From Phycisphaerae bacterium (GTDB lineage Bacteria > Planctomycetota > Phycisphaerae > Tepidisphaerales > Tepidisphaeraceae), in NCBI GenBank assembly GCA_026004655.1, contig BPJO01000006.1, positions 1 through 64,000 of the forward strand: DNA of 64,000 nucleotides. The letters are read 5' to 3'. The notes under the pieces are model-generated. The model was not told the DNA's origin. It worked only from the letters and a program-made list of their open reading frames with translations, and made no database searches. Below, in pieces: positions 22,713-31,734 of the stretch (position 1 is the first letter of the stretch; each line of letters starts with the position of its first letter). The position numbers were made by a program, and so were the translations under genes.

Positions 22713-22742
22713 GAGTCCCCGTTCGGGTTAGAACGGGGACTC
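22713..22742 (-). terminator. Perfect 12-bp stem downstream of the HPF/sigma-like gene
   Basis: GAGTCCCCGTTC and GAACGGGGACTC form a perfect 12-base-pair stem with a six-base loop. It begins 36 bases after the stop codon of the upstream gene on the minus strand, a sensible place for transcription to end before the flgE promoter. There is no T-run, so it may be a weak terminator or an RNA stabiliser. The rest of the 22494-22777 gap holds only the sigma-54 site. Confidence 0.5.
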
Positions 22743-22777: not shown

Positions 22778-23806
22778 TTAACCGTTCGTGGCTGACTGTG
22801 AACTCAACCGCTGTCGAAGGGATTCCCGAACCCGATCAATATCCTCTCGGACTTGATCAACGGACCGGTTCTGCAACAAGGCAATTTCAGACGCGTCCCA
22901 TCCTTCCACGACGTGCAGCATAAAGGCTCTGCGTGCGGGATGCGGGAACCGACGTAGCTGGTTGACCAGCCACTGCATCTGTTCCTGCGCAGCCAACTCC
23001 TGCCACGGTTCAGGCACTTCATGATCCGGCAGGGTCTGATACAACGTCAGTGGGGAAAGAAAGTTCTGAAAATAAGGCTCGTTCTCCGCCATCCATCCGA
23101 TGTCGGTTTGATAGCGCGGGTCGTCTGCCGGGATCGGTTCCTCGACGGAATGATCCGTTCTGGAAACTTTCTGGTAGTACTCATCCAACACCTCGTGCAA
23201 CAGATGTAACAACCATTGGTCCAGATTCAAACGCGTAGGACGATGGTCGTAATTCTCCCATGCCCGAACCGCTACTTCGTCCACCAGATCCGAAACGCTC
23301 AGTTCTCCCGGACGGATCGCGCCTTCCAACTGGGCAACCAACAGTTCATGATGCGCCTGATCCGCCACCTGACGCAGCAACGGACGAATCAACTCCATGA
23401 AAGAAGCCCGGTCCCCTTTTCGCACATCGGACTCCAGAAACGATCGGACCCGGTGAAACTCGTCCTCCCGACGACGTTTGCGACGATACACGTCATCGTG
23501 CCGGAGCTTTTCCTTATGCCTTCGAATCTCCATCGCGAGCTTATCGGCGACCCGGTCCACCGCAGCCGGCCATTCGTCACGATGAAACGTCTGTTCCTCA
23601 GCAACCAATGTTCCGGTCGGCAAAACCAGGATCACGCGCACGTCCCACCCATTTTTCGCAGGACGCATTGATAATCTCAACGACTGTTGATCCTCCGGGA
23701 TCGGTCGAAGCAACCGTTTAATCCGACGCAGCTTGCGATTCCAGTAATCACTGACACGTTCTTTAAGTTCGGTTGATTCTTCCGGAATCACGATTTGTTC
23801 AGCCAT
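22778..23806 (-). CDS. HPF-like domain fused to sigma-70-like regions, novel architecture
   Basis: A 342-residue cytosolic protein. Residues about 10-110 look like a ribosome hibernation-factor fold (S30AE): YWNRKLRRIKRLLRP, DVRVILVLPTGTLVAEE, AAVDRVADKLAMEIRRHKEK. Residues about 130-225 contain a sigma region-2-like part (LVDEVAVRAWENYD ... LDQWLLHLLHEVL), and residues about 280-335 a sigma region-4-like helix-turn-helix (RRAFMLHVVEGWDASEIALLQNRSVDQVREDIDRVRESL). It could link ribosome hibernation to transcription, but both roles are inferred from sequence resemblance. GGAGGTGAT precedes the ATG, and it is the third gene of an operon headed by a sigma-54 promoter. Confidence 0.72.
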   Translation of the reverse strand: MAEQIVIPEESTELKERVSDYWNRKLRRIKRLLRPIPEDQQSLRLSMRPAKNGWDVRVILVLPTGTLVAEEQTFHRDEWPAAVDRVADKLAMEIRRHKEKLRHDDVYRRKRRREDEFHRVRSFLESDVRKGDRASFMELIRPLLRQVADQAHHELLVAQLEGAIRPGELSVSDLVDEVAVRAWENYDHRPTRLNLDQWLLHLLHEVLDEYYQKVSRTDHSVEEPIPADDPRYQTDIGWMAENEPYFQNFLSPLTLYQTLPDHEVPEPWQELAAQEQMQWLVNQLRRFPHPARRAFMLHVVEGWDASEIALLQNRSVDQVREDIDRVRESLRQRLSSQSATNG

Positions 23807-23833
23807 GACCGATCACCTCCGTCGCAGGTTCGA

Positions 23834-24082
23834 TTACCACTCGAACGATTCCATCTCGTACACGTCCCGACTTCGTCGCTGCAATCGTCGGATCTGCCAA
23901 GCAGAAAAGATCAGACTGGCACCGACCAGAACGATCCCCCCTGCCACAAGCATCACCAGAATGGTCGGGAAAAGCACAATGATGATTCCGAGCAAGACCA
24001 GCAAGCTTCCCAGAAGCATCTGAGATTTCCACCAGAAATCGTATTCACCCGCCTGCCAGATGAAAAACTCCCGAATGCGCAT
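23834..24082 (-). CDS. Small two-helix membrane protein
   Basis: An 82-residue protein with two adjacent membrane helices (about residues 20-60: LLGSLLVLLGIIIVLFPTILVMLVAGGIVLVGASLIF) and a basic, aromatic C-terminal tail (WQIRRLQRRSRDVYEMESFEW). The family is not recognised. AAGGAGGA gives a strong ribosome binding site. It overlaps the preceding gene by 38 bases in another frame and is followed 27 bases later by the HPF/sigma-like gene, so the three are probably made together. Confidence 0.75.
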   Translation of the reverse strand: MRIREFFIWQAGEYDFWWKSQMLLGSLLVLLGIIIVLFPTILVMLVAGGIVLVGASLIFSAWQIRRLQRRSRDVYEMESFEW

Positions 24083-24320
24083 GATCGTCCTCCTTCAGGT
24101 CTGAACGACTTTTTTTGCACAAAACCGTCTTTTGACGGATCCGATGGAACACCCGTTTTCCGACAAAGCCCCCCGCCAGTGCTGTCCCGATCAGCATGGC
24201 AGCGATCGTCAGCATGAGCAGGACAACCGGAAAAAAGATCATGACTAATCCCACCAACCAAACCGAACCGATGCTGGCAACCAAACGCAACCATTCACGT
24301 CGTAACGTTGCTAACACCAT
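24045..24320 (-). CDS. Small membrane protein, first gene of HPF/sigma operon
   Basis: A 91-residue protein with a basic start (REWLRLV), two membrane helices (about residues 15-53) and a basic C-terminal region. It resembles its downstream neighbour in layout (a FFPVVLLMLTIAAMLIG helix versus LFPTILVMLVAGGIVLV), so the two may be distant paralogues. GGGAGGTGA precedes the ATG. A sigma-54 promoter match lies about 100 bases upstream. Function unknown. Confidence 0.72.
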   Translation of the reverse strand: MVLATLRREWLRLVASIGSVWLVGLVMIFFPVVLLMLTIAAMLIGTALAGGFVGKRVFHRIRQKTVLCKKSRSDLKEDDHAHSGVFHLAGG

Positions 24321-29799: not shown

Positions 29800-31266
29800 T
29801 CACGGGGTAAAGACCTCAAAAACCCTGCTTTCACTCTTACCCTGAACAACTCCTCCTCCCGCGACGTAGATTTTTCCGTTATAGGCAACCGGCGCGATCC
29901 CGTGCCGATCCGTGGGGATGGGGGCGACTTGTCGCCAAGTATTGGTCAAAGGATTGTAGACATCGACGCGGTCATAAACACCATCCGAACCGGTCTGGGA
30001 CAGATCTGAATCAGTTTCTCCCCCGATGACATAAAACTCGCCATTGAGAAATGGTGCTTTGCTAACGCCTGCTCGTCGCTGGGGCAAGGGGGCATAGGTG
30101 CTGGAAGTTCTGGAGCTAGTCCAGGTATTGGTCTGCGTGTCGTACACGAGGGTTTGCGCGTACCCGTTTCCCGGTCTGTCACCCACATCGCGTCCGCCGA
30201 AGATGAACATTCGTCTGCCGTCGGTTCCGGTCGCCCCGGAATCGGTCCGATGCGGAATATCGGGTAAGTTGGTCCATTGGTTCGTGATCGGGTCATAGAC
30301 TGCAAAACGATTGGTGGTGATATTGCCGGTCGTTACCCCTCCTGCGAGGTAAATTTTACCCCCGATGACAGCCGTCTGAGACGCAGCAGCTGCAAATGGA
30401 ATTGATGCGCCATAGGTCCATCGATTGGTGGATGGGTCGTAAATCTGGGTCGTATTCAACACCTGTTGACCGCTTGATAAGTATCGAACACCCCCGAAAA
30501 GGTAGAGCTTTCCATCGACGACTTCCGCCACCTGATCTTTCGCCCGAACCGGACGGGTGGCATGACCGGTGGACCAGGTATTGGTCGCAAAATCATAGGA
30601 AAAGGTGCGAGAATCTCCGTCTCCGACGATAAAAAGTCGGTTATTGATGACCCCGCCGCTGACTTCGCCCAAGGCCACAGGCAATGAGGCCAGCGTTGCC
30701 CAACGACCGACCGAGGGGGTGGAAGGCGGATCCGGTGAGTCGATTTCGCCTATTTTCTCGACCCTCGCGAAATTGAACGGTGTCAACGGAGCATCGGATC
30801 GGGCCCATAACGTCAATCGACCGTCCGTCACTTGTACGTCCACCTGACCGCCGATGTAGGGGATTCGGTCACTGACCGAACCACGATAGATCGTTGCGCC
30901 TTCTGCACAGACTGCGTACCGACGCCCTGCGGTCACGTAATCCCCGCTGACCACCCAGACACGATACTTCCCGTTGGGAACAGCGATTTCCCAGGTCTTC
31001 CCGAAGGCATAGACCATCGAATCGTACCGGAAAGTGAACCGAGTATGTCGCAATTTGGGCGCTTCGGTAGTGTTATCCGATGACCATCCGTACGAATACC
31101 CGTTCCCACGATCGCCAAAAGCAGCTCCTGTATCGGCGACATACCCGCTAGGCGGGGAATACCCGGAGGGTTGAAAATTGATATTGACAGCAAAAGTCTC
31201 CCCGGCCAGAAACCGTCGAGATTCCAGAGCTTCCAATTCTGGTCGATACAAAGCTACCTCACGCAT
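29800..31266 (-). CDS. Secreted Kelch-repeat protein with LEPR-type N-terminal motif
   Basis: A 488-residue protein. The start (RPELEALESRRFLAGE) fits the LEPR-RxLLAG motif found near the N-terminus of large exported planctomycete proteins. Residues about 22-170 form a beta-rich carbohydrate-binding-like module (VNINFQPSGY ... YSYGWSSDN ... VWVVSGDY). Residues about 185-488 hold at least five Kelch repeats, each with a GG pair and a W/Y (KLYLFGGVRYL, KIYLAGGVTTG, RMFIFGGRDVG, EFYVIGGETDS, KIYVAGGGVVQ), which would form a beta-propeller. Ligand unknown. It is transcribed away from hpf. Confidence 0.82.
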   Translation of the reverse strand: MREVALYRPELEALESRRFLAGETFAVNINFQPSGYSPPSGYVADTGAAFGDRGNGYSYGWSSDNTTEAPKLRHTRFTFRYDSMVYAFGKTWEIAVPNGKYRVWVVSGDYVTAGRRYAVCAEGATIYRGSVSDRIPYIGGQVDVQVTDGRLTLWARSDAPLTPFNFARVEKIGEIDSPDPPSTPSVGRWATLASLPVALGEVSGGVINNRLFIVGDGDSRTFSYDFATNTWSTGHATRPVRAKDQVAEVVDGKLYLFGGVRYLSSGQQVLNTTQIYDPSTNRWTYGASIPFAAAASQTAVIGGKIYLAGGVTTGNITTNRFAVYDPITNQWTNLPDIPHRTDSGATGTDGRRMFIFGGRDVGDRPGNGYAQTLVYDTQTNTWTSSRTSSTYAPLPQRRAGVSKAPFLNGEFYVIGGETDSDLSQTGSDGVYDRVDVYNPLTNTWRQVAPIPTDRHGIAPVAYNGKIYVAGGGVVQGKSESRVFEVFTP

Positions 31267-31389
31267 GACTGATCCTAGGCAAAGACGACAACGGCAGGAT
31301 AGGGTTAACAGTCAAAAAAACGGTTTAGTTTCTAGTCGTCAAGGATTTGATGCGATCCTATGCTCAAGAGTCTTAACAAAGGAGTGTCT

Positions 31390-31734
31390 ATGCAGATCGA
31401 CATTATCAGCCACCGGATCGACCGTTCGGCGGCTTTGTGGACTTATATCGAGACCCGATTCACGCAGGCCGTCCTGCGTTTCGCGTCTCAGGTGGATCGG
31501 ATGATCATCCGACTCTCCGATGTCAACGGAAGTCGTGGCGGGGTTGATAAATCCTGTCGGGTAGAGTTGTTCTGGAGCCTTGGTGATCCTGTGATAGCCG
31601 AAGCAACAGACGCGGATCCATACGTCGCGGTGGATCTGACAGCGAGCAAACTCAAACGTGCTGTCCTTCGAGCATCGCGTCGTCGATGGGAAAAACCGCG
31701 GAAAATCCACGAAATCCGTCCCGCAATTATTTGA
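31390..31734 (+). CDS. hpf: Ribosome hibernation promotion factor (HPF/RaiA family)
   Basis: A 114-residue short HPF/YfiA-type protein: MQIDIISHRIDRSAALWTYIETRF at the start, the DRMIIRLSDVNGSRGGVDKSCRVEL centre, and VAVDLTASKLKRAVLRASRRRW at the end. Such proteins bind the 30S decoding region and idle ribosomes in slow growth. AAGGAG (31379-31384) supports the ATG at 31390. A probable 6S RNA, another slow-growth factor, lies directly downstream on the opposite strand. Confidence 0.85.
   Translation: MQIDIISHRIDRSAALWTYIETRFTQAVLRFASQVDRMIIRLSDVNGSRGGVDKSCRVELFWSLGDPVIAEATDADPYVAVDLTASKLKRAVLRASRRRWEKPRKIHEIRPAII

Follow-up and report, generated by a model that had tools for sequence, protein, structure and literature searches.

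Organization of the Locus

The window, which is the whole stretch of DNA analyzed here (64,000 nucleotides from a Phycisphaerae bacterium), carries on the minus strand a gene encoding a protein of 342 residues, in which an S30AE (HPF/RaiA-like) domain is followed by a part resembling ECF sigma factors. The features discussed below are the following, the evidence being given in brackets:

22713 to 22742, minus strand: terminator-like 12-pair hairpin, about 35 nt past the stop codon of the fusion gene (hairpin scan)
22778 to 23806, minus strand: gene of the fusion protein (342 aa), combining an S30AE domain with an ECF-sigma-like part (open reading frame, Pfam/NCBIfam, full-length relatives)
22787 to 23014, minus strand: sigma region 4-like part, residues 265–340 (Sigma70_r4_2 under its cut-off, model helices)
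22820 to 22861, minus strand: position of the region 4 recognition helix, SVDQVREDIDRVRE, net charge -2 (positive in canonical ECFs)
23015 to 23155, minus strand: disordered linker, residues 218–264 (pLDDT <50 for residues 216–264)
23156 to 23422, minus strand: sigma region 2-like part, residues 129–217 (TIGR02937, hhalign to planctomycete ECF sigma2, model helices)
23501 to 23803, minus strand: S30AE domain, residues 2–102 (PF02482, fold order in the model, Foldseek, alignment to HPFs)
23813 to 23820, minus strand: Shine-Dalgarno-like GGAGGTGA ahead of the start codon of the fusion gene (sequence)
23834 to 24082, minus strand: gene for a small membrane protein, next to the fusion gene on its upstream side, 27-nt gap (sub-threshold Pfam similarity, YtpI)
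24045 to 24320, minus strand: second gene for a small membrane protein, in overlap with that at 23834 to 24082 (weak match to holin-X, PF07332, 18.7 bits, cut-off 28.4)
31360 to 31734, plus strand: diverged stand-alone S30AE paralog (PF02482, 37.5 bits; TIGR00741 below its cut-off)

The reading frame of the fusion starts with ATG, and the Shine-Dalgarno-like sequence, the first nucleotide of which lies 14 nt upstream of this codon, was rated good. The fusion gene is the last of three closely spaced genes, and a flagellar cluster lies downstream. The membrane protein gene at 23834–24082 is a probable operon partner. The hairpin is only suggestive of a terminator, six such sites being present in the region as against 3.3 expected. 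The holin-X family is one which we take to include YqjE of E. coli, the neighbor of the ribosome-binding membrane protein YqjD. As conserved partners of the fusion, the two upstream membrane proteins were discarded, no convincing homolog having been identified in seven other genomes. Elsewhere in the window, the minus strand at 29800–31266 encodes a protein in which a planctomycete-type N-terminal motif, LEALESRRFLAG, is followed by kelch-like repeats.

S30AE proteins are three in number in the source genome: the canonical HPF, the diverged copy at 31.4 kb and the fusion. The copy at 31.4 kb had been taken for a normal hpf in the preliminary description, which has to be corrected: helix 2 of this diverged S30AE protein ends in RAVLRASRRRWEKP and not in the HKEK-type motif, the branch leading to the protein in a tree of S30AE domains is long, and the canonical hpf (109 aa, 83 bits) is located on another contig (contig 4, at about 18.3 kb; L073, 776–1105). 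The canonical gene is followed by PTS EIIA (ptsN)-like and HPr-like genes, so named from reading their sequences, which is a classical arrangement. The presence of all three S30AE genes in one genome means that the fusion is an addition to HPF and not a replacement for it.

The N-Terminal S30AE Domain

Profile searching for S30AE, which had been named beforehand as the test of the claim that the N-terminal part has an HPF/RaiA fold, gave a match, and the claim stands. PF02482 was found at residues 11–102 (E=6.7e-8, 33.6 bits, gathering cut-off 23.7) and, at E<=0.1, in 10 of 12 members of the fusion family; TIGR00741 reached 27.7 bits, under its cut-off of 40.9. Alignment to HPFs showed that helix 2 of the domain has a basic end, RRHKEKLR (residues 95–102), which in HPFs faces the rRNA; this end is retained to a varying degree in many of the relatives and is weaker in L026 and L046, for example. 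PF16321, the C-terminal dimerization domain of long HPFs, was not detected in the fusion in a Pfam scan at E<=5.

The AlphaFold model of the fusion, built from four sequences, has a mean pLDDT of 69 and a pTM of 0.42, and the relative placement of its parts is unreliable. The S30AE part, where the pLDDT values are about 72–87, shows the order beta-alpha-beta-beta-beta-alpha expected of the fold, with strands at residues 2–6, 42–50, 53–62 and 65–74 and helices at 12–32 and 76–125. When the model was compared with the PDB using Foldseek, HPF/YfiA entries were matched, many of them ribosome-bound (best TM about 0.7–0.78 of target), as were ECF sigma factors, with a best E of 1.4e-5; complexes between sigma and anti-sigma factors ranked high (5uxx, RpoE-NepR; 4cxf; 5wuq). 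The structure prediction called for in the preliminary description thus recovered both the S30AE fold and the sigma2- and sigma4-like folds. A profile built from 12 relatives of the fusion again retrieved HPFs and ECF sigmas, in this case by sequence.

The Sigma-Like Part

The presence of sigma regions 2 and 4 with a helix-turn-helix, as proposed initially, was borne out at the profile and fold levels. TIGR02937 (sigma70-ECF) matched residues 135–334 with 43.1 bits, barely above its cut-off of 42.9, and Sigma70_r4_2 scored 22 bits, below its cut-off of 25.7; Sigma70_r2 gave no match in the Pfam scan. The region 2-like part opens with an ECF-type GDxxxF motif, comparable to the GDxxAF of ECFs, and its region 2.2 reads SDLVDEVAVRAW. 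The model places sigma2-like helices at residues 133–161, 171–188 and 195–217 and sigma4-like helices at 267–284, 289–301, 305–312 and 316–340.

The helices on which promoter contact would depend differ in charge from those of canonical ECF sigma factors. With helix charge counts serving as a proxy for DNA contact, the region 2.3/2.4 helix (the 20 residues following the invariant Trp) has a mean net charge of -1.8 in 18 fusion members (range -5 to +1), as compared with +4.5 (range +2 to +9) in a set of 31 canonical ECFs drawn from planctomycete genomes, that of the window included and row L052 left out; the two ranges do not overlap. In the recognition helix of region 4, the mean is -1.6 in nine fusion members and +2.2 in 15 ECF-type matches. 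Since the members of the fusion family are related, the U-test p-values obtained on these charges overstate independence and are indicative only.

The Gln of the region 2.2 motif DxxQE is replaced by Asp or Glu in all 18 members, the Asp and Glu positions being mostly retained. We take this residue to be the equivalent of Gln406 of sigma70, which matters for core binding, as mutational work has established. The consistent replacement means that the contact with beta-prime may be altered or gone, and core binding by the sigma part is accordingly uncertain as judged from these residues.

Seven members (L031, L032, L034, L046, L048, L049, and L072) have no region 4 and end after the sigma2-like part; in the case of L049, just the end of the S30AE domain was read. 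In L031, L034, and L048, the next gene begins at once, so that there is no room for a region 4. The C-terminal part of five of the seven aligns with ECF sigma2 (hhalign probability 90). It follows from these seven members that S30AE plus sigma2 is what the whole family retains. L034, L046, L048, L049, and L072 form a distinct subfamily consisting of the S30AE and sigma2-like domains only, with motifs of the GRWxxRYP and EEVYLNAF types, and one genome (G545) carries both this short form and the full one.

The idea of an ordinary sigma factor binding the polymerase and promoters is not supported in its initial form, in view of the charge lost from the DNA-contact helices, the replacement of the Gln in 18 of 18 members and the absence of region 4 from seven. 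These features of the sequence make it likely that promoters are not read by the sigma part as they are by canonical sigma factors, and the fusion is probably a sigma mimic carried by a ribosome-hibernation scaffold, a promoter-reading sigma being unlikely.

Relatives of the Fusion

Diverged relatives of the fusion (about 16–41% identity) occur in at least 10 planctomycete families, according to their family labels. Among the 298 genomes of the class searched, three more relatives with the full layout were identified (L002 and L003, about 40% identity; L004, 26%), and none was found in the window's own family. A profile search in 392 genomes of the phylum at E<=1e-12 yielded about 16 genomes with a match spanning the S30AE and sigma2-like parts, a count taken from the match coordinates, some matches being cut by contig ends; scanning genome contigs with the fusion as a single protein yielded no match. 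The close relatives obtained from a three-member alignment were JAAYQH010000043.1, DCUI01000042.1 (Phycisphaerales UBA2218), and JAGOLX010000046.1 (Phycisphaerae), the first and last of which are apparently identical with the contigs of L002 and L003. L071, from a member of the Bacteroidia, was set aside because its match covers region 4 only.

The S30AE-domain tree, which includes few stand-alone proteins and has three rows on long branches, separates 17 fusion domains from eight stand-alone ones by a branch with 98/97 support, and this split allows a single origin. Chance is excluded by the full-length relatives in unrelated planctomycete families, where the two parts follow one another as they do in the window protein. 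The architecture first described, S30AE and then a sigma-like part, is borne out, as regards both the domains and their order, by the profiles, the fold and the relatives of the same layout, and can be regarded as practically certain.

The genes adjoining several of the relatives encode BON, HSP20, CHAD, and PCMT proteins and one weak Usp match; these stress-type neighbors are suggestive of a role in stress. Other relatives precede rplS-like and yraN-like genes, named from reading the sequences. The neighborhoods are not conserved between subfamilies. Local conservation was observed in one family: in three genera (L027, L033, and L043), the fusion directly follows a radical-SAM-like gene, and in L027 and L033 it precedes an EamA-type transporter-like gene. 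No anti-sigma gene was recognized beside the fusion in the window, in L068–L070 or in the other relatives read.

Possible Functions of the Fusion Protein

We propose, with a probability of about 0.4, that the fusion is a two-headed dormancy or stress factor in which a decoy sigma is carried by a ribosome-docking domain. Like HPF/RaiA, the S30AE domain would dock on idle ribosomes, in the decoding channel of the 30S subunit; to judge from the domain, ribosome binding is likely. The ECF-like part has -10 and -35 contact helices without positive charge, as can be seen in the sequence, and for this reason the protein is unlikely to start transcription. In the last and least certain step, the docking face of sigma2 would still bind a sigma partner, most likely the beta-prime clamp of the core polymerase; the decoy would thus keep the core off promoters and near the ribosomes under storage.

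The partner of the mimic may be the RNA polymerase core, an anti-sigma factor or another copy of the fusion. Sigma2 is the main core-docking part of sigma. Because all the members retain S30AE plus sigma2, the core is favored, and remains a tentative choice. Binding to both the ribosome and the polymerase is plausible. That the family constitutes a joint hibernation factor spread across the Planctomycetota, its S30AE domain plugging the 30S channel while the promoter-blind mimic fills the sigma-docking site of the core, is a rather doubtful extension of this proposal.

Two other roles are live rivals. The fusion might be a variant of the long HPFs, the sigma-derived part serving as a dimerization or ribosome-contact module without any link to transcription; such a role, which is somewhat unlikely, would fit the layout (S30AE, linker, C-terminal domain) and the degenerate sigma surfaces, and archaeal HibA likewise joins an HPF domain to a foreign ribosome-binding module (PMC13324472). 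However, region 2.2 and the GDxxxF motif keep sigma-like residues in very diverged members, beyond what a free scaffold would need, and the acidic character of the helices examined is not that of an RNA-binding surface. Mimicry of the PhyR type, in which the sigma-like part would remove an anti-sigma factor and thus free a genuine ECF sigma, S30AE tying the process to the state of the ribosome, is unlikely. Sigma mimicry is well established for PhyR (PMC8999054), a sigma fold retained without its DNA contacts is consistent with such a role, as is the high rank of sigma/anti-sigma complexes in the Foldseek results, and with the NCBIfam model of PhyR 9 of 12 members gave E<=0.01, at scores under the cut-off of the model. 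This match sits in region 4, however, a region absent from seven members; the fusion showed no receiver domain in a Pfam scan at E<=5, and the genes adjoining it in the loci read include no recognizable anti-sigma gene.

Less likely still is a genuine ECF sigma which a regulatory S30AE domain would hold on idle ribosomes until its release. This reading, which we regard as improbable, draws on the TIGR02937 score above cut-off, on the presence of both sigma regions and the linker in the window protein and on the frequent occurrence of regulatory extensions in ECFs (PMC8999054), but it is at odds with the lack of positive charge in the promoter-contact helices, the failure of Sigma70_r2 to match, the region 4 score under its cut-off and the seven relatives without region 4. 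Lastly, although the source genome is a draft assembly of 31 contigs, a chance resemblance or an assembly chimera has a negligible probability and was ruled out by the relatives in many genomes from at least 10 families and by the supported branch parting the fusion S30AE domains from the stand-alone ones.

If the two-headed factor exists as proposed, the combination of a hibernation domain and a sigma mimic within one family would connect the two machines physically and directly, offering a simple testable object, and the fusion may link idle ribosomes with the transcription machinery. The family also suggests that a sigma factor may turn into a protein which does not read promoters, on a ribosome-binding scaffold, and that proteins of this type probably carry the annotation of sigma factor.

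Comparison with Known Systems

No description of an S30AE-sigma fusion was found in the open-licence PMC literature. HPF domains combined with other modules, such as HibA, are already known (PMC13324472), as are ECFs with extensions (PMC8999054). The former study looked for fused domains in bacterial HPFs, and the present fusion may possibly be among those tabulated in its supplement.

Like HPF/RaiA, the fusion has an S30AE profile match above cut-off, the same fold order and a basic end of helix 2; it differs in its additional sigma-like part of about 215 residues and in not reaching the TIGR00741 equivalog cut-off. With the long HPFs it shares the succession of S30AE domain, linker and C-terminal domain, but it lacks PF16321, and its C-terminal part resembles a sigma factor and is far longer. 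In HibA, an archaeal HPF/RaiA domain is fused to a CBS module, which is N-terminal (PMC13324472), whereas the module of the planctomycete fusion is sigma-like and C-terminal.

The sigma2-sigma4 layout with an extra domain is common to the fusion and to ECFs with regulatory extensions, such as SigG1/ECF56, an ECF sigma with a SnoaL extension (PMC7730460). In the fusion, by contrast, S30AE is the added domain and stands at the N terminus, the promoter-contact charge is lost and some members have no region 4. PhyR likewise has a sigma-like fold which need not read promoters, but it carries a receiver domain where the fusion has S30AE.

In E. coli, RMF/HPF are paired with the anti-sigma factor Rsd, and transcription and translation are silenced together (PMC6904343), which speaks for the proposed two-headed factor. 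On entry into dormancy, this silencing is performed by separate proteins under shared control, Rsd being an anti-sigma, whereas the fusion is one protein with a probable sigma mimic.
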